This document shows, one piece after another, positions 9,149 to 18,721 of a DNA stretch of 64,000 bases; position 1 is the stretch's first letter, and every line of letters starts with the position of its first letter. Under the pieces are notes generated by a model. It worked only from the letters and a program-made list of their open reading frames with translations. It did no database searches and was not told the origin of the DNA. The position numbers and the translations under genes are program-made. The stretch is from the NCBI RefSeq assembly GCF_040250305.1, contig NZ_CP158190.1, positions 4,000,001 through 4,064,000 of the forward strand, in the 5' to 3' direction. Source of the stretch: Peribacillus frigoritolerans. Lineage in GTDB: Bacteria; Bacillota; Bacilli; Bacillales; DSM-1321.

Positions 9149-9409
9149 TCAGTCCTTCTCTCTCTTTAATTCCAGTTGAAGCTGGTCTAGTTCATCTTTT
9201 AATTTAATATATTCGTGGATGGTATTCACGGCCGTTAGCACCGCTAGCTTACTTGTATCCAAGTATGGATTTTTCATCCTGATCTCTCTCATTTTTTCGT
9301 CAACCATCGAAGCGACCAGGCGCATATGACTTGCGCTTTCTGTGCCGACGATTGTATATGGTTGTCCGTATATATCAACTGTTGTTTTATTTCGTTTATC
9401 GTCTGACAA
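9149..9409 (-). CDS. zapA: Cell division protein ZapA
   Basis: FtsZ-associated protein that bundles FtsZ filaments at the division site. The 86-residue protein has the ZapA N-terminal segment ([15 protein letters not shown]) and a C-terminal coiled coil (about 62-86). The initiation codon is TTG at 9409, seven bases from a GGGGG ribosome-binding site; there is no ATG in the region. It is first in the operon, divergent from rnhC. A possible promoter upstream has TATGAT as its -10 but a weak -35. Confidence 0.93.
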
Positions 9410-9582
9410 AATGATGCCCCCAATCTAAACAATCCTAATTCTATCATATCACGAAGTTTTTCGTCATGAAAGAGAGTACATCGTCATTTCTCGCATAAAA
9501 ATTTCAATAATTTGTCAAACGAAAACGAATTTTAGGAAGAGGATTACCTAATAAACAAAATGAAGTTAGGAGCTTACCCATT

Positions 9583-10542
9583 ATGTCCCATGTTGTTTTA
9601 CTTATCAGTCCTGAACAAATAAAGGCGATGAAGTCCCACTATTCTTCATCCTTGGCCGCCAAGCTGCCGCCCGGGAGCATCTTTTCCGCCAAACCGCCGC
9701 TATGTACGGTGACAGCCTATAAATCTGGAAAGGTGCTTTTTCAGGGGAAAAATGCCGAACTAGAAGCGGTAAAATGGCAAAATAGCACCACTGCTGCTGC
9801 TCCAAAGAAAAAAACGGCATCCCCTGCATCAGTCAATGTCCATCGATATTCGCCGCCTGCAAATATCGGGACCATGTCTGTGATTGGATCCGATGAGGTC
9901 GGAACAGGAGACTATTTCGGCCCGATCACCGTCGTAGCCGTATATGCAAAAAAGGAGCAACTAGCCCTATTAAAGGAGCTTGGTGTCCAGGATTCTAAAA
10001 ATCTCAAAGATCCACAGATCATCGAAATTGCCAAACAGATTAAGGATGTAGTGCCATTCAGCCTGCTCACATGCGACAACCCGAAATATAATGCGCTCCA
10101 GGCAAAGGGAATGTCACAAGGAAAAATGAAGGCACTCCTCCATAACCAAGCAATCAAGAATCTCATGCAAAAAATCCACCCGGAACAAGCGGAAGCGGTC
10201 CTTATTGATCAATTTGCTCAACCAGAGGTATTTTTCAATTACCTTAAAGGGCAAGAACTATTTCAAGCTAATGCCACCTATCTATGCACAAAAGCGGAAG
10301 GCATACACCTTGGAGTAGCAGCCGCATCCATCCTGGCCCGATATGCATTCGTCAAACGCTTTGACTTGCTGAGTGAAAAAGCCGGATTCAAAATCCCTAA
10401 AGGAGCCGGATTTGCAGTCGATGAAGCGGCCGCAAGATTGATTCACGAAAAAGGAATCGATTCATTACACGAATTCACGAAAACCCATTTTGCCAACACA
10501 GAAAAAGCGAAGCGATTATATCAACAGAAATATCATAAATAG
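9583..10542 (+). CDS. rnhC: Ribonuclease HIII
   Basis: Cleaves RNA in RNA-DNA hybrids and acts at R-loops and lagging-strand primers. The 319-residue protein has the N-terminal TBP-like substrate-binding domain (1-80) characteristic of RNase HIII, and the catalytic domain with GSDEVGTGDYFGP (102-114; D104 and E105 catalytic) and further acidic residues in LIDQF. AGGAG precedes the ATG by ten bases. Divergent from zapA, convergent with pheT across the tandem array. Confidence 0.95.
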   Translation: MSHVVLLISPEQIKAMKSHYSSSLAAKLPPGSIFSAKPPLCTVTAYKSGKVLFQGKNAELEAVKWQNSTTAAAPKKKTASPASVNVHRYSPPANIGTMSVIGSDEVGTGDYFGPITVVAVYAKKEQLALLKELGVQDSKNLKDPQIIEIAKQIKDVVPFSLLTCDNPKYNALQAKGMSQGKMKALLHNQAIKNLMQKIHPEQAEAVLIDQFAQPEVFFNYLKGQELFQANATYLCTKAEGIHLGVAAASILARYAFVKRFDLLSEKAGFKIPKGAGFAVDEAAARLIHEKGIDSLHEFTKTHFANTEKAKRLYQQKYHK

Positions 10543-10545
10543 AAG

Positions 10546-10579
10546 AAAGCGGCTGATCTTTTGGAAAAGCCGCCTTTTT
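10546..10579 (+). terminator. rnhC terminator
   Basis: GCGGCT (10549-10554) pairs with AGCCGC (10568-10573), followed by CTTTTT. The first tandem-repeat unit starts in its U-tract. Confidence 0.85.
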
Positions 10580-11066
10580 CTCGTGAGGTTGCGCGGTTTA
10601 CTCGTGAATTCGTGACATTTACTCGTGAGTTTACGCCATTTACTCGTGAGTTCACGCTATTTACTCGTGAGTTTGCACCATTTACTCGTGAGTTTGCACC
10701 ATTTACTCGTGAATGCACCATTTACTCGTGAGTTTGCACCATTTACTCGTGAGTTTACGCCATTTACTCGTGAGTTTGCACCATTTACTCGTGAATTCAC
10801 GCTATTTACTCGTGAATTCTCGCGTTTTACTCGTGAATTTGCTATTTACTCGTGAGTTTACGCCATTTACTCGTGAGTTTGTACCGTTTACTCGTGAGTT
10901 TGCACCATTTACTCGTGAATTCACGCTATTTACTCGTGAATTCTTGCGGTTTTCTCGTGAATTTGCTATTTAGTCGTGAGTTTGCACCATTTACTCGTGA
11001 GTTTGCACCATTTACTCGTGAATTCACGCTATTTACTCGTGAGTTTGCACCGTTTTCTCGTGAAAT
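10576..11066. repeat. Tandem array of 24 units, 21 bp each
   Basis: Twenty-three complete units plus a partial twenty-fourth, directly adjacent with no spacers. Twenty complete units are 21 bp and three (7, 13 and 19) are 19 bp. The invariant part is TTTACTCGTGA (TTTT or TTTA plus CTCGTGA); the remainder is one of a few variants: GTTTGCACCA, GTTTACGCCA, AATTCACGCTA, or the short AATTTGCTA. Units 11, 17 and 22 contain the 12-bp palindrome CGTGAATTCACG. A block of four units (10-13) recurs as 16-19, 124 bp on, so the array grew by segmental duplication. It lies exactly between the convergent rnhC and pheT terminators. Open frames across it merely reflect the 7-codon period and are broken by the 19-bp units. 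Confidence 0.95.
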
Positions 11067-11109
11067 CCAAAAAGACAGCTCCCCAAGATTCAGGGAGCTG
11101 TCTTTTTGG
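11067..11109. terminator. Bidirectional terminator at the end of pheT
   Basis: A near-perfect inverted repeat, CCAAAAAGACAGCTCCC pairing with GGGAGCTGTCTTTTTGG around a short loop, giving U-tracts in both directions. It ends pheT on minus and closes the repeat array on plus. Confidence 0.9.
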
Positions 11110-11111
11110 TT

Positions 11112-13526
11112 TTATCCTCTTAGCTCTGCGCCGGCTTTTTCTTTAACGGCTTCAAGCACTTTATCATGTGCTTTTGTAATGTCCTCGTCCGTCAGTGTAC
11201 GTTCCGGGTCGAAGTATTTCAGTGAGTAGGCAATGGATTTCTTGCCTTCCTCCATTCTTTCACCTTCGTATAAGTCAAAGATGCTTACTTCTTTCAGCAG
11301 CTTGCCACCAGCTTCTTCAATAATATCTTGAATGTCCCCGGCTTTCGTAGCTTGATCCACAACAAGCGCTATATCGCGTGTGGTTGATGGATAGCGCGGA
11401 ATGGTTTGGTACGAAATCGGCGCGACTTCGGCTTCTGCCAATGCTTTTAAGGAAAGTTCGAAAATGTATGTTTCTTTAATATCCAAGTCTTTTTGGACAG
11501 TTGGGTGCACTTGGCCGATAAAGCCAATCACTTCACCATTCAATAGTATTTCCGCTGTCCGTCCTGGATGCATGTCGTTGATTTCCGCTTGGCGATAACT
11601 GATTTGATCAGCTAATCCAAGTGTGTCGAATAATGCTTCGATCACGCCTTTGGCTACAAAGAAATCCACTGGTTTCTTTTCACCTTGCCATAAATGTGAC
11701 TCCCATAGGCCTGTGATTGCTCCAGCAATATGTTCTTTTTCTTCAGGCAGTTCTTGTTCGTCACGCTTAAAGAATACCGAACCGATTTCATACAGTGCCA
11801 GTGAATCAATTTGGCGAGCATTGTTATATTTCACGACTTCCAGCAATTGAGGCACGATGCTTAAACGCAGCTGGCTCCGTTCTTCACTCATTGGCATTGC
11901 TAATCGTATGGATTCTCTTGCTTCCAATGCGAATTGTGACGCTTTTTCCTGGCTTGTCAGTGAATAGGTCACCGCTTGATAAAGGCCTGCGCCTTCAAGT
12001 GTACGGCGTGCCTTCCGCCGTTTAATTTGATAGTCAGTCAATTGGCCTGGGGTAGCAGAACCGATTGGCAGTGTAGCGGGAATGTTATCATATCCATATA
12101 AACGTGCAGCCTCTTCGACTAAATCAGCTTCAATCGTAATATCGCCACGGCGCGTCGGCACTGTGATCGTGAATGTTTCATTGTCAAGTTCCACTCCGAA
12201 TTGCAGACGTTTGAAGATTGACTCCACAACTGATACGGTCATGCTTGTGCCAAGAAGGGTGTTGATTTTTTCAAGAGTGATGTTAATGACCGCAGGTTCC
12301 ATTGTCAATTCGTCAACTTCTGCTGCTCCTTGTAAGACTGTTCCGCCTGCATATTGTGCAATCAATTGTGCTGCACGTTCTCCAGCTTCACGAACACGGG
12401 CCGGGTCGACGCCTTTTTCAAAGCGGGCACTGGCTTCACTACGTAATCCATGGTCCTTTGAAGCTTTGCGAACTACTGTACCTGCAAAATATGCACTTTC
12501 AATAATGATGTTCGTCGTATCATTTTTCACTTCGGAATCCGCTCCGCCCATCACACCAGCAATCGCAACAGGCTCGCTGCCATTTGTGATCACTAAATGG
12601 TCAGGTGTCAAAGTGCGTTCCGCTTCATCCAATGTTACGATTTTTTCAGCATCCTTCGCTCTGCGGATGACGATTTCCTTTGAACCAAAGCGGTCATAAT
12701 CAAAGGCATGGAGAGGTTGGCCGTATTCAAGTAAAATGTAGTTCGTGATATCCACCACATTATTATGAGGTCGGATACCTGCAGACATCAACCTAGTTTG
12801 CATCCAAAGCGGTGAGGGTCCAATCTTAACATCTTTGATGATTTTAGCAATGTATATCGGGTTATCTTCTTTCGCTTCCACTTTGACACTGATATAATCA
12901 GTTGCTTTTTCAGCAGCCTCTTCTTTCTCGACTACCGGCCATTTCACTTCCCGGCCTAGAATGGCTCCCACTTCGTATGCAACACCAAGCATACTCAATG
13001 CGTCGGAGCGGTTTGGAGTCAGCCCAAGTTCCAGCACTTCATCACTTAAACCAAGTTCCTCCAATGCATCTTTCCCTACTTCCACATCATTAGGGAAGAC
13101 GAAGATACCTGTCGCATAATCCTTGGAAACAAGCTTGGATTCGAAGCCCAATTCTTGAAGCGAGCAAATCATCCCGTGCGATTCCTCTCCGCGAAGTTTC
13201 GCTTTCTTGATTTTGAAATTACCTGGAAGGACTGCGCCAACAGTAGCGACTGCGACTTTTTGGCCTTTATCTACATTCGGTGCTCCACAAATGATCTGAA
13301 CGGGATTTTCGGCCCCGATATCAACTTGGCATTTATTCAATTTATCCGCATTTGGATGTTGTTCACGTTCTATGACATGCCCGATGACGACCCCTTTTAG
13401 CCCTTCACTTTTCTTTTCCACCCCTTCAACTTCAATGCCGCTTTTCGTGATTTTGTCAGCTAGCTCCGTCGCATTGATGCCTGAAAGGTCAACATAATCT
13501 TGTAACCATTTATATGAAACAAACAT
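11112..13526 (-). CDS. pheT: Phenylalanine--tRNA ligase beta subunit
   Basis: Large subunit of the heterotetrameric PheRS. The 804-residue protein has an N-terminal tRNA-binding OB fold (about 40-155), the B3/B4 editing domain (about 210-400), the B5 domain and the C-terminal ferredoxin-fold anticodon-binding domain ([13 protein letters not shown] near 711). Length is the family norm. AGGAGG precedes the ATG. It follows pheS by 28 bases and ends at the terminator facing the tandem array. Confidence 0.97.
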
Positions 13527-13554
13527 GGTAGGTCCTCCTTTTTAAAATAAAAAT

Positions 13555-14598
13555 TTATGCTTCGTGATGGTTGAATTGTTTTAAGAATCGAACATCATTC
13601 GTATAGAAATGACGGATATCGTCCACACCGTACTTCAACATGGCAATCCGTTCCACGCCGATTCCAAATGCGAATCCAGAGTATTTCTTGGAATCGAAGC
13701 CAGCCATTTCAAGGACGTTCGGATGAACGATCCCGCCGCCAAGCACTTCGATCCAGCCTGTTTGTTTACATACGCTGCAGCCTTTACCGCCGCAGATTTT
13801 ACAAGAAATATCCACTTCGACGGAAGGCTCCGTAAATGGGAAGAAACTTGGACGAAGACGGATTTCACGGTCTTGCCCGAATACTTTTTTCGCAAATACG
13901 TCTAGCGTTCCTTTCAGGTCGCTCATGCTGATGTTCTCATCGATGACCAAGCCTTCAATTTGCTGGAATTGGTGGGAGTGTGTCGCATCATCGTTATCAC
14001 GGCGATAAACTTTTCCTGGGCAAATGATTTTAACAGGACCTTGACCTTTATGTTTTTCCATCGTTCTGGCTTGAACAGGTGAAGTGTGCGTACGCATAAG
14101 GATTTCATCCGTGATGTAGAAGGAATCCTGCATATCACGTGCCGGATGGCTTTTTGGCAAGTTAAGTGCCTCGAAGTTGTAGTAGTCGCTTTCGACTTCA
14201 GGACCTTCCGCAACGGTATAACCCATCCCGATGAATAAGTCTTCGATTTCTTCCACGACACGTGTTAATGGGTGTAGATTCCCCTTGTTTACCGGACGTC
14301 CTGGAAGTGTGACGTCAATCGTTTCAGTTGCTAGCTTGGCATTGACTGCCGCAGTTTCAAGCGCTTTTTGTTTCTCCTCGATCTTTGTTGCGATTGCTTC
14401 CCGTACATCATTGGCTAGTGCCCCGATTTTCGGGCGTTCTTCGGCAGATAATTTACCCATGCCGCGCAATACCTCAGTGATTGGCCCTTTTTTCCCTAAA
14501 TAAGCAACACGGACTTCATTCAGTTCTTTTAATTCGGAAGCGGCGGCAACTTTTTGCAACGCTTCTTCCTGCAGTTCTAGTAAACGTTCCTGCATCAT
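13555..14598 (-). CDS. pheS: Phenylalanine--tRNA ligase alpha subunit
   Basis: Catalytic subunit of PheRS, a class II synthetase. The 347-residue protein has an N-terminal coiled coil and the class II core with [19 protein letters not shown], the [14 protein letters not shown] region and the C-terminal [17 protein letters not shown] motif 3. Two adjacent ATGs follow AGGAGG at five and eight bases; either could initiate. Controlled by a T-box leader directly upstream and cotranscribed with pheT. Confidence 0.97.
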
Positions 14599-14635
14599 GT
14601 CTTCCTCCTTTATTTTCCTTTTGTAAAAATGAACA

Positions 14636-14905
14636 CAAAAAAACCCCGATCCCTAAAGGGACGAGGTTTATGTATCGCGGTACCACCCTTATTAGTGCAC
14701 AAACAAAAAAGCTTCTGCACTCACTTCATTAAAAATAACGGCTCTTCACCGGAACATTTTTCGGACAATCTGTCTTCCCAATGCCAACTCGAAAGGTGAA
14801 TTCACTTAAGCAATGCCATAAAAATGCTTTCAGTCAAGGCATTTTCTCCCTGGATATGGTTAACTAAAGCTACTACTCTTTGTCATCGTTGTTTTCATTA
14901 TAAAA
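14636..14905 (-). promoter_or_regulatory. T-box leader of pheST
   Basis: A tRNA-sensing leader. The T-box sequence GGGTGGTACCGCG reads on minus at 14688-14676, followed by the terminator hairpin (14640-14668, loop AAA, then a run of T). Stem I contains AGGGAG and a candidate specifier UUC (14800-14798), a phenylalanine codon fitting the downstream genes. Uncharged tRNA-Phe would favour the antiterminator. Confidence 0.92.
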
Positions 14906-16030: not shown

Positions 16031-16057
16031 CAGCCTTCAGAGGCTGTTATTTTTTTA
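16022..16057. terminator. Bidirectional terminator of sspI and the facing YflT gene
   Basis: AATAACAGCCT / AGGCTGTTATT with a 4-base loop and A/T runs on both sides. The stop codons of both convergent genes fall in the structure. Confidence 0.9.
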
Positions 16058-16430
16058 ATTTCGCTTCGCCAGCCTTAAGTTCTTCGATGGAGACTTCTTC
16101 ATCAAGCAGCAAGATGAATTTTTTAGAGCCCACTTCTTCAAGCATCGCTTTTGTCTCATCATAAGAGTAGCCATATTTCGTGAAAAAGCTGCGTAAATCT
16201 CCAGATCCTTCATCTGTGAAGTAGTGGAAGATTTTTAAAAAAAGAGTGTCCTCCTTATCCTGATTGGCGATGATCAATATATCCGTATGTTCATTTCCAA
16301 GCTGCACATGATTTTTTATATCAGCTGCCACTGTCATTTGGGTGCCAGATACGCCTTTTGCTTTTAAGTCTGAAATTGCAGCAAGTAGTTCCGGATTAGA
16401 GTCAAAAACACCATATACGTTTTTTTCCAT
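16047..16430 (-). CDS. YflT-domain general stress protein, single domain
   Basis: A 127-residue protein that is essentially one YflT/GsmA ('general stress protein 17M') domain: VYGVFDSNPELLAAISDLKA at the N-terminus, then a TVAAD strand, a helix with DEGSGDLRSFF and the C-terminal KFILLLDEE. Molecular function is not established. It is the smallest of three adjacent paralogues (with 16811-17623 and 17792-18721), each with its own promoter and terminator. A sigma-B-like promoter lies upstream at 16481-16505, and the start follows AAGGAGGGGG. Confidence 0.85.
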   Translation of the reverse strand: MEKNVYGVFDSNPELLAAISDLKAKGVSGTQMTVAADIKNHVQLGNEHTDILIIANQDKEDTLFLKIFHYFTDEGSGDLRSFFTKYGYSYDETKAMLEEVGSKKFILLLDEEVSIEELKAGEAKLKK

Positions 16431-16480
16431 GTTTCTCCCCCTCCTTGTTACTTTACTTAAAATAAAATTCCTTTGTCATT

Positions 16481-16505
16481 ATACCTTGCAGCTTTATCAA
16501 TAAAC
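16481..16505 (-). promoter_or_regulatory. Candidate sigma-B promoter of the first YflT gene
   Basis: On minus, GTTTAT (16505-16500), 13 bases, AGGTAT (16486-16481), against consensus GTTTAA-N12-15-GGGTAT: one mismatch in each box. An overlapping TATAAT could also serve sigma-A. Confidence 0.65.
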
Positions 16506-16556
16506 AAGCAAATAGTCTATGGAGACGAACAAGGGAACCCTCTGCCTAAAGGGTTT

Positions 16557-16747
16557 TTATAAAAATAACAGCCTGTAGCTAACTCTAAGAAAATCGAGTT
16601 TGCCTGCAGTTTTATTAAAAAACGCTGCAGTTGATTTCAGAATCCGCCCCCTTTCCGCCGACTGTCTGCCAAGCCACATCAAAGCAAGCGGCTGCGGTGG
16701 CTCGGCTAGCCAGTAATTCGTCAGGAGGGTCGCACATTTCTTCAATC
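16557..16747 (-). pseudogene. Repeat module B, copy 2, with decayed reading frame
   Basis: Positions 16630-16747 align with module B copy 1 (3464-3581) over the full 118 bp with scattered substitutions. Read on minus, a one-base insertion after the GACGAA codons and a one-base deletion near GGCGGATT shift the frame relative to the intact copy, and no start codon with ribosome-binding site precedes it. The 62-aa frame that can be read here mixes frames and is not a credible gene. A hairpin module (CTGTAG ... GCCTGCAG, about 16570-16607) flanks it, as at copy 1. Confidence 0.6.
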
Positions 16748-16769
16748 CAATAACGACTACAGTAAAAAA

Positions 16770-16800
16770 ACAAACAAAAACAGCCTTATGCAGGCTGTTC
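16770..16800 (-). terminator. Terminator of the second YflT gene
   Basis: AACAGCCT / AGGCTGTT (16779-16786, 16792-16799) followed on minus by TTTGTTTGTTTTTTT. Confidence 0.85.
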
Positions 16801-16810
16801 TTGTTGCGTA

Positions 16811-17623
16811 TTACAGATTGTCGGTATTGATTCGATTTTTGATGTATTCATCTTGTAAGCCTTCCTCTTGCTGTCCGCTGGCTGTCGGGCTCAGGGTCCG
16901 ATCCAGTGATCCTTGAGCATCAAGGGCTTTGTCAGTATCGGCAGAAAACGGGTCTGCATGAGGGTCGCTAGCCAGTGTCCCTTCCTGAATCCCTGGTTTT
17001 TGCTTCTTGAATTTTTCTGTGGAATTCCCCCAGATTTCCCTTTCTTGAGCTCGCTTCATATCCAGCTCTTCATTTTCATAGATATTGGCGGAATTTCCGT
17101 GAAGCTCTTCGCTTCTTCCTGGCTGTGCTTCCATTTCCCTTGTTTGATAGGCATTCGCGGTTGTTTCCGGAAAAAGGTTCGGGTCCGGATTGTTCACCAC
17201 CCCTGTTTTAAGCGGATTCTCTGCAGGTGCGCCCGTATCCTCGATGCGATTGGAAGTTATGTTCTCTCGTGCTGTTACGGTTTCCGATTCATCTATAAGA
17301 ATGAGGAATTTTCCGGCCTCCACTTCATTTATATAAGCGGTTGCTTCACTATCGGCAAGCCCTAACTCACCTAGACGGTTCCTTATATCTTCAGAACCCT
17401 CGTTCAGGAAAAAGTGTTTCATTTTATCAATGAAGGATTCCTCGTTAGAGTTAGTAACGACTTCGACATCCGGATCATGCTTTTCATTAACGAAATCCAA
17501 ATCTTCTTTCTTATCAGCCATTACCGTTATTTCCCCTTCATGAACCCCCTTTTCCTTGAGGGATTGTATAGCCTGGATCATTTCTCTTTCCGTATTAAAA
17601 ACACCATATAACGTTTTTCCCAT
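16811..17623 (-). CDS. YflT-domain stress protein with charged C-terminal tail
   Basis: 270 residues. The N-terminal 110 are a YflT domain (LYGVFNTEREMIQAIQSLKE, TVMADKKEDL, DEGSEDIRNRLGELGL, KFLILIDE). The rest is a low-complexity, hydrophilic tail rich in N, E, P and D (about 120-270) with no domain I recognise and no membrane segment. The ATG at 17623 follows GAGGAGG. It has an exact-consensus sigma-B promoter and its own terminator, so it is an independent stress gene next to two paralogues. Confidence 0.82.
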   Translation of the reverse strand: MGKTLYGVFNTEREMIQAIQSLKEKGVHEGEITVMADKKEDLDFVNEKHDPDVEVVTNSNEESFIDKMKHFFLNEGSEDIRNRLGELGLADSEATAYINEVEAGKFLILIDESETVTARENITSNRIEDTGAPAENPLKTGVVNNPDPNLFPETTANAYQTREMEAQPGRSEELHGNSANIYENEELDMKRAQEREIWGNSTEKFKKQKPGIQEGTLASDPHADPFSADTDKALDAQGSLDRTLSPTASGQQEEGLQDEYIKNRINTDNL

Positions 17624-17668
17624 GCATATTCCTCCTCATTTTTCCGATATTTCTTCTTATGTGTATTT

Positions 17669-17693
17669 ATACCCTGATGGGTGCCAATTAAAC
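17669..17693 (-). promoter_or_regulatory. Sigma-B promoter of the second YflT gene
   Basis: GTTTAA (17693-17688), 13 bases, GGGTAT (17674-17669) on minus: an exact match to the B. subtilis sigma-B consensus. Confidence 0.88.
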
Positions 17694-17753
17694 AAAAAGG
17701 TTTGCCTTCCCTAAGCTCGAACCTTTAATCAGCCTTTAAAAACCAAAAGGAAA

Positions 17754-17776
17754 CCTGCAGTTTTTAAAACTGCAGG
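17754..17776 (-). terminator. Terminator of the third YflT gene
   Basis: CCTGCAGTTTT paired with AAAACTGCAGG around one base, then TTTCCTTTT on minus, 16 bases after the stop codon. Confidence 0.75.
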
Positions 17777-17791
17777 CCATTTCCTTCACGC

Positions 17792-18721
17792 TTAGAAGCG
17801 GTCGGTTCTACGTTCAGTTGCCTTTTTCTCATTCACGATCGATTCATCTGTACTATCAAGCTGGATATCTTCCTTTTTAAGAGTATCCTGAACTTGTTCC
17901 GTTTCTTGTACAGCATGTTTCTTGATGACAATTTCATCGGTGACAACCGGTTTTTTCGAAACTTCCAGTTTTTCTTCAACAACCGGGATTCGTAATGTTT
18001 CCCCATCTTCAATGGTTCCGGTTTCCCGATTCGCTTCACGTCCTGAAACCGATCTATGCTCAACTGTCACTTCTTCGTGTTCAACAGGGACATTGATCGT
18101 TTTATGCTGTTCATTGACTTCTTTATTAATGACGACTTCTCCTGTCTGAACTCTTTCTTTGTCAATGTTCAGCTGTTCTTCCCGAAGTGTAAGTGTCCTT
18201 TCATCTTCTGGCAATTCACGGCCTTGTCCGTTGACTCCATAAACATCTTCTTTATTTAAAGCATCGGTTTTTTCCGTGCCATTATATAGTGGGTTGGTGG
18301 AGTTAGTATCAAGCCTTGTACCGGCAGTGTCCATTGTTCCGGTCGTGAATTTATCTCTTGCCGTTCCAAGATGGCCTTCACCTTCTTCAACCAGAACCAG
18401 GACTTTTCCATTTTCTACATCAAAGACATGTTCAGCCGCCTCACTATTCGAAAGGCCTGCATTCGCCAATCTTGTTGAAAGGTCTGCCGTATCTTCCGGC
18501 ATGAAGAAACGTGCCACCTTGTCCATAAACGATTCGTCGTTAGGAACATTCGTCATTGTATGAACATCCGTTTCGCGTTTGTGGTTCGTGAAATCCAATG
18601 TTTCTTCCTTATCCGCGACGACAGTAATATCGTCCCCTTCAAAACCCTTTGCCTTAAGTGCATTAATTGCTTGGATCACTTCTGCGTTTGATTCATATAC
18701 TCCATATACTGTTTTATTCAT
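17792..18721 (-). CDS. YflT plus DUF2382 stress protein
   Basis: 309 residues with two domains: an N-terminal YflT domain (1-112; VYGVYESNAEVIQAINALKA, TVVADKEETL, KVLVLVEEG) and a C-terminal DUF2382 (YsnF/AvaK-type) domain from about 180, beginning TLREEQLNIDKERVQTGEV, with repeated KEV/VPVEHEEVTVEHR and IPVVEEKLEVSKKPVV strands. DUF2382 is common in general-stress proteins; its biochemistry is unknown. AAGGAGGAATGTAAA precedes the ATG. It is controlled by a sigma-B-type promoter. Confidence 0.85.
   Translation of the reverse strand: MNKTVYGVYESNAEVIQAINALKAKGFEGDDITVVADKEETLDFTNHKRETDVHTMTNVPNDESFMDKVARFFMPEDTADLSTRLANAGLSNSEAAEHVFDVENGKVLVLVEEGEGHLGTARDKFTTGTMDTAGTRLDTNSTNPLYNGTEKTDALNKEDVYGVNGQGRELPEDERTLTLREEQLNIDKERVQTGEVVINKEVNEQHKTINVPVEHEEVTVEHRSVSGREANRETGTIEDGETLRIPVVEEKLEVSKKPVVTDEIVIKKHAVQETEQVQDTLKKEDIQLDSTDESIVNEKKATERRTDRF

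Follow-up and report, generated by a model that had tools for sequence, protein, structure and literature searches.

The intergenic region between rnhC and pheT of Peribacillus frigoritolerans is filled by a tandem array that belongs to the known class of 20-21-nt Bacillus repeats, and a polarity relative to gene ends, sites shared between species, core dialects and a 10.5-bp phasing are added here to the description of this class. A tentative reading, to which we give somewhat less than an even chance, is that the array provides oriented, phased sites for a putative lineage-specific DNA-bending protein at the ends of transcription units. Protein binding, DNA bending and a boundary effect are the parts of this reading that we infer.

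Structure of the array between rnhC and pheT

The window, i.e. the whole stretch of 64,000 nucleotides that was analysed, corresponds to G000:C1:4000001-4064000 of a single-contig genome of 5,596,670 bp (G000). Its relevant features are listed in Table 1.

Table 1. Coordinates of the array and its flanking features in the window
Feature	Position	Strand	Description
rnhC	9583..10542	+	ORF, presumably ribonuclease HIII; on the 5' side of the core, convergent
rnhC intrinsic terminator	10549..10579	+	arms 10549-10554 / 10568-10573; T-run 10575-10579 merges into unit 1
24-unit array	10576..~11066	+	14-bp core TTTACTCGTGANTT and 7-bp spacer; TRF, core scan
pheT intrinsic terminator	11069..11107	-	arms 11069-11083 / 11093-11107, perfect 15-bp inverted repeat
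pheT	11112..13526	-	ORF, which we take to be phenylalanine--tRNA ligase beta subunit; anchor gene, 3' end toward the array; orthologous flank in other species

The tandem array of 24 units between convergent terminators described in an earlier note on this DNA was confirmed, with units called as cores with at most two mismatches. The period of 21 bp holds for 21 units, while units 7, 13 and 19 comprise 19 bp; TRF reported 23.8 copies of 21 bp as well as periods of 103 and 124 bp. Calling the motif CTCGTGA invariant was a slight overstatement, as it is present in 23 of the 24 units and unit 20 reads GTCGTGA. The palindromic units (CGTGAATTCACG in units 11, 17 and 22) and the higher-order duplication (units 10-13 and 16-19, 96.3 % identity) are present as described, and so are the flanking terminators, with the pheT terminator abutting the last unit and the space between both terminators fully occupied by the array. 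Based on A- and T-runs on both of its sides, the pheT terminator is possibly bidirectional. The core points to the 3' end of pheT. The 7-bp spacers recur between units, where unique spacers would be expected for a CRISPR array. Elsewhere in the window, three adjacent and apparently paralogous ORFs of 127, 270 and 309 AA (16047-18721, minus strand) are alike at their start (..VYGVF/Y..) and are perhaps general-stress proteins.

Distribution within the genome

The core TTTACTCGTGANTT was found 202 times in G000 (119 forward, 83 reverse) and zero times when the pattern was read backwards, so the repeat count is far above chance. All but one of these cores (201/202) belong to arrays with three or more units. 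A BLAST search with the rnhC-pheT array returned 37 places in the genome, and a core scan of those stretches yielded 36 arrays, mostly at sites that other species share. Therefore, the unit is not restricted to this locus; it was such a restriction that the earlier note had linked to a neutral minisatellite. No array is located at G000:C1:2467076-3722957, a terminus-side region of roughly 1.25 Mb that includes the sign change of the GC skew. Under uniform placement, the chance of such a gap is about 1e-4; gene conservation may be its cause. In plasmids, phages and viral contigs, which were searched for the GTGA dialect, neither a GTGA array nor a GTGA pair was matched.

The spacing of neighbouring cores in G000 is 21 bp in 244 of 292 cases and 20 bp in 14, and 46 spacings amount to 19, 20, 22 or 23 bp. 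As 21 bp correspond to seven codons and the core can be read as FTREF, a coding repeat was considered, in which the variable positions 12 (A/G) and 15 (T/C) would be third codon positions with synonymous changes. However, the third positions 3, 6 and 9 are at least 95 % invariant, the 46 deviating spacings break the frame, and other dialects would encode different residues. Due to the invariant third positions and the frame-breaking spacings, this explanation was rejected and is given next to no probability.

Shared sites and turnover of unit number

A homolog of rnhC was found in all 36 genomes of the genus; in one of them (G025:C2:605341-606295, completeness 87 %) the gene is broken into three parts that overlap and differ in frame, for which sequencing errors are perhaps responsible. 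From these genomes, 30 rnhC-pheT loci were fetched and 27 were readable. Three or more cores, identically placed and oriented, are present in 16 of them, while seven more distant members contain none. Where any cores were found at this locus, unit number ranges from 1 to 38, with 24 units in G000 and 6 in the second genome of its species. The 120 named loci contain 131 arrays, of which 14 are unmatched and 117 correspond to one of the 36 sites in G000; the match rests on both flanks for 75 of them, on the anchor flank alone for 18 and on the opposite flank alone for 24. Thus, array sites are common across species while unit number varies freely. GTGA pairs occur in 17 of 199 relatives, all from the same genus, and the named records with the same arrays include, among the matches listed, Peribacillus simplex, frigoritolerans, muralis, butanolivorans and relatives.

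The array was found by BLAST at 38 places in G001, at least 36 in G199, at least 41 in G017, 27 in G023 and only 7 in G021, a low count to which the assembly of 130 contigs may contribute. The rnhC-pheT gap of G021 is complete and holds a single core. As close relatives with few or short arrays, G021 and G023 are natural cases for finding what maintains the arrays. Many sites seem dispensable, given the near-loss of arrays in G021.

This turnover is what the strongest rival explanation would predict. According to it, the units are a neutral or selfish minisatellite that spread long ago to the least harmful gaps behind genes and has since changed by slippage and recombination. The free variation of unit number at one site, even within one species, the higher-order duplications, the near-loss in G021 and anchor genes without a functional theme all fit this explanation, which is nevertheless considered unlikely. 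By itself, it leaves unexplained the fixed direction of the arrays, the change of the core at matching sites that keep their specific spacers, and the GC-rich spacer that completes the 10.5-bp period, all described below.

Orientation relative to genes and replication

For the analysis of polarity, a gap between co-directional genes was termed tandem-antisense if the core is directed at the upstream gene's 3' end. Genes were predicted for all genome sets with a single script of our own based on codon score and ORF length; a caller based on the codon score only gave 17 antisense, 3 sense, 14 convergent and 1 divergent array in G000 compared to the values reported in Table 2. The G000 set comprises 35 arrays, i.e. 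the 36 without 4298121, which lacks an exact core. Arrays closer than 700 bp to a locus edge were left out, which applies to 34 of 131 in the named set.

Table 2. Arrays by orientation relative to the neighbouring genes
Genome	Antisense	Sense	Convergent	Divergent
G000	19	1	15	0
G014	17	1	13	1
G018	8	0	4	0
G102	5	0	2	0
G179	5	0	2	0
G276	2	0	2	0
G133	1	1	0	0
Sum (n=99, five core patterns)	57	3	38	1

In co-directional gaps, the ratio of antisense to sense arrays is 57:3 (p = 6e-14). Compared with the 576 array-free gaps of the same seven genomes (333 tandem, 80 convergent and 163 divergent), divergent gaps are avoided (1/99 arrays vs 163/576, p = 5e-12) and convergent gaps are enriched (38/99 vs 80/576, p = 7e-8), with the limitation that the loci are partly dependent, since G179 and G276 belong to one genus and G014, G018 and G000 have sites in common. 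For G000 alone, the respective values are p = 4e-5 for polarity, 4e-5 for divergent and 3e-4 for convergent gaps. In the redundant named set (n=97), the bias is looser, with 50 antisense, 7 sense, 33 convergent and 7 divergent arrays.

The location between convergent genes that had been proposed for the array therefore describes 15 of the 35 arrays in G000, more than expected from its array-free gaps of at least 100 bp (49 convergent, 178 tandem and 86 divergent of 313). Of the arrays in co-directional gaps, 19 have their core directed at the 3' end of a gene, and one is placed in the opposite way. The common factor of the arrays is a gene 3' end on the 3' side of the core.

Exceptions recur at one site, namely 1957684 of G000 with L097, L139 and L147, and 4298121 with L140 and L179. 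Because the same site recurs in several genomes, they are probably real. The array that recurs in L097, L139 and L147 (L189 9685-9981) lies in sense direction between co-directional genes.

The minisatellite explanation could still accommodate the polarity if selection acted against one direction, for example against spurious signals in front of a gene. An orientation by the replication fork, as for a replication-linked element, was also considered. Minus arrays of G000 are mostly located at 0.2-2.4 Mb and plus arrays mostly at 3.7-5.5 Mb, 17 of the 19 tandem-antisense anchors run with replication, and the exception 1957684 obeys the replication rule while breaking the gene rule. In convergent gaps, however, where the gene rule allows either direction, eight arrays are oriented with replication and seven against it, which indicates that genes and not replication set the direction. 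Of the three tandem gaps in which the two rules disagree, two follow the gene and only 1957684 follows replication. For these reasons, replichore polarity was rejected as the main rule, and a replication-linked element is very improbable.

Anchor genes and terminators

The anchor genes in G000 include, besides pheT, aspS, thrS, glpK, ytkD and genes for the glutamate synthase small subunit, superoxide dismutase, a PotD-like protein, an amino-acid permease, a gamma carbonic anhydrase and a GerXC-type protein; these names are the best NCBIfam matches, several of them under the curated cut-off. Anchors in other genomes include ezrA, rlmN, spoIIE, cwlD and thrS. No regulon theme was found among 30 anchors in G000, seven of which have no family match, nor, with a stricter limit, among 19 anchors and one other gene elsewhere (9/20 without a match). 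The anchors look like ordinary ends of transcription units, and without a common theme among them, the suggestion that the array titrates a regulator is unsupported. An array follows thrS both in G000 (4398803, L202) and, with another core, in G179 (L264) from another family of Bacillales, which is either an ancient site or a repeated choice. For the arrays 1066853, 3885115 and 4933911, the distance between the stop codon of the anchor and the TAA in unit 1 is exactly 21 bp.

Of 34 arrays, 20 are separated from the gene by a terminator, a share close to that of the control gaps (146/223 tandem, 76/122 convergent). All eight arrays within 30 bp of the stop codon lack an intervening terminator. 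Since 20 of 34 arrays already have a terminator in between, a role of the array as a terminator substitute was rejected; a link to the loss of Rho was rejected as well, because Rho was found in all 43 genomes searched. The presence of arrays both before and after terminators favours a role at the DNA level.

This also bears on the possibility of an RNA-level element, be it a repeat of the 3' UTR or a locus from which small or antisense RNA is made, with the core strand running antisense into the anchor. Such an element would fit the position at gene ends, a modest folding bias (mean z of -1.93 for the core strand and -1.04 for the gene-sense strand, 30 arrays) and a complementarity between spacer and core that in the GTGA sets somewhat exceeds the value for shuffled spacers (z of 3.3 and 6.3). 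Small RNAs have also been proposed in PMC8161180. On the other hand, the intervening terminators place many arrays outside the mRNA, and no Rfam family was matched at 9400-14800. The complementarity was kept when spacers were swapped between dialects, which argues against dialect-specific pairing, and a dialect-specific RNA stem is not supported. Altogether, an RNA-level element is quite improbable.

Core dialects and spacers

G014 and G018 contain zero GTGA pairs genome-wide, and 117 and 191 pairs were found with a relaxed core, which reads TTTACTCGCCAATT or TTTACTCGCGARTT in nearly all of the matches listed. For 18 of the 48 arrays examined in both genomes, both flanks are orthologous to an array in G000, covering 11 sites, and all 18 keep their direction. 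At these sites, G014 and G018 have 120 GCSA and 2 GTGA cores, and G000 has 81 GTGA and 2 GCSA cores. The regions of G014 and G018 were taken from the matches of the relaxed pattern, and an array had to contain one exact GCSA core or more to be detected. Thus, one dialect of the 14-bp core, CTCGTGA or CTCGCSA, prevails throughout a genome, and the dialect of G014 and G018 is another than that of G000 at each of the 11 orthologous sites.

Differently spelled versions of the frame TTTACT-xxxx-A-x-TT-N7 are present in other families of Bacillales: TTTACTGTCCAATT in G102 (12 pairs), TTTACTGTCCACTT in G179, G276, G297 and G317 (14, 10, 4 and 4 pairs), and TTTACTGGCAACTT and TTTACTATCAACTT in G133 (7 pairs). 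Any match to the frame was obtained in 21 of 299 genomes, compared to 11 genomes with at most three matches each for the reversed control. As this control gives up to three matches per genome, the 12 genomes with only one or two may be due to chance. In the distant genus members G010, G030, G009, G012 and G022, counts of single cores (134-197 per genome) are below the reversed-pattern control. A triple-unit pattern was found in 0 of 228 genomes outside Bacillales; inside the order, the same strict search detected G000 only (1/22).

Spacers behave differently from cores. Over 115 comparisons between mutually dependent species, the mean nearest spacer distance is 1.82 at the same site in another species and 3.37 at different sites, with 0 of 1000 permutations as low, while the values for cores show little difference (0.67 and 0.93). 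Judged by these distances, the spacers are inherited by site. The uniformity of the core is partly built in, because units were detected with at most two mismatches. Still, a uniform core per genome that has changed at matching sites while the spacers were kept makes exchange between arrays hard to invoke. The pattern of dialects would rather point to a recogniser acting in trans.

Helical phasing

The alternation of AT- and GC-rich DNA in 30 arrays has a power of 4.05 at 10.5 bp (background 0.31) and 0.19 at 21 bp (background 0.24). The sequence repeats every 21 bp, yet its composition shows no such period. AT blocks occupy unit positions 1-4 and 11-15 and GC-rich blocks positions 5-10 and 16-20, the latter with 72 % G+C vs 40 % in genome DNA. 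When the spacers were randomised, the 10.5-bp power was lower than that of the natural array in 28 of 29 cases, and when the positions within the unit were permuted, in all 29. A version based on roll angles agrees for 27 and 29 of the 29 arrays, respectively. In other genomes, the 10.5-bp power, given without background, is 4.91 for G014/G018, 2.20 for G102 and 1.17 for G179/G276, where the signal is weak and the power at 21 bp is 1.06. The earlier note had suggested a repeated protein-binding site on one face of the helix. The uniform core, the dialects and the 10.5-bp alternation speak for this indirectly, whereas binding itself is the inferred part.

The phasing could also serve a landing site for gyrase or another topoisomerase, where positive supercoils in front of RNA polymerase would be removed, by analogy with BIME-2 and strong gyrase sites. 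Gyrase prefers wrapped, phased DNA, and the location at gene 3' ends, the avoidance of divergent gaps, the excess in convergent gaps and the alternation itself are all consistent with such a site. However, gyrase is conserved, and a conserved enzyme alone leaves the core differences between sister species at the same sites unexplained; such a site also gives no evident role to the direction of the core. Therefore, this possibility is rated as improbable, slightly below an RNA-level element.

Comparison with known repeats

Bacillus repeats of 20-21 and 52 nt with constant size and variable sequence have been described, with the simplex group being rich in 21-nt repeats; nucleoid proteins or small RNAs were proposed for them, and they were called enigmatic in 2021 (Subirana and Messeguer, PMC8161180, available parts of the text). 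The arrays described here agree with that account in unit size, in combining several families per genome with a short common sequence (here a 14-bp core with site-specific spacers), in being non-coding and in being a trait of Peribacillus simplex and its relatives, as judged from the matches listed. In its strain comparison of 52-nt repeats, sites were only partly conserved, unlike the shared 21-bp sites. No statement on polarity at gene ends, shared 21-nt sites or core dialects was found in the available parts of this source or in the literature searched; priority is not certain.

Several other systems are similar in part. Sal-box arrays are bound by TTF-I behind rRNA genes in eukaryotes. They are likewise tandem, oriented sites directly behind a transcription unit and serve as a working analogy, with no homology claimed; they have a known protein and serve one gene family, whereas the protein of the 21-bp arrays is putative. 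BIME and REP elements are intergenic repeats at operon ends and, together with strong gyrase sites, resemble the arrays in this position and in helical phasing. REPs are palindromes, whereas the 21-bp unit is asymmetric, and a stem-loop with compensating changes was not found, as the complementarity in the GTGA sets exceeds that of shuffled spacers only slightly and is not dialect-specific. The DNA uptake sequences of Neisseria and Haemophilus are genome-wide words with species dialects, and in Haemophilus the word contains AT tracts at helical spacing. They are scattered as single copies, whereas nearly all cores here are in arrays.

Conclusion

In the preferred reading, a putative protein would bend or wrap the DNA that follows the 3' end of a transcription unit. 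The 21-bp unit would span two helical turns, with TTTACT-xxxx-A-x-TT as the recognised sequence and a spacer that need only maintain the AT/GC alternation. A row of bound protein could then form a polar boundary beside the gene end, at which RNA polymerase is stopped or insulated or local supercoiling is handled. Polarity, the convergent excess, shared sites, dialects, site-specific spacers, phasing and the confinement of cores to arrays count for such binding sites. The restriction to 36 gene ends without a common function, the sense and divergent exceptions, the near-loss in G021, the weak 10.5-bp signal in G179/G276 and the partly built-in conservation of the core count against them.

A broader version is rather doubtful. 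It assumes a fast-evolving DNA-wrapping protein in Bacillales whose oriented arrays would act as polar transcriptional or topological boundaries, with protein and sites changing specificity together between species, as a counterpart of TTF-I and the Sal box in its way of working. The binding protein, if it exists, would represent a novel type of boundary or termination factor with a specificity that can be traced through evolution. The rules of polarity, shared sites, dialects and phasing make the function of these repeats experimentally approachable.
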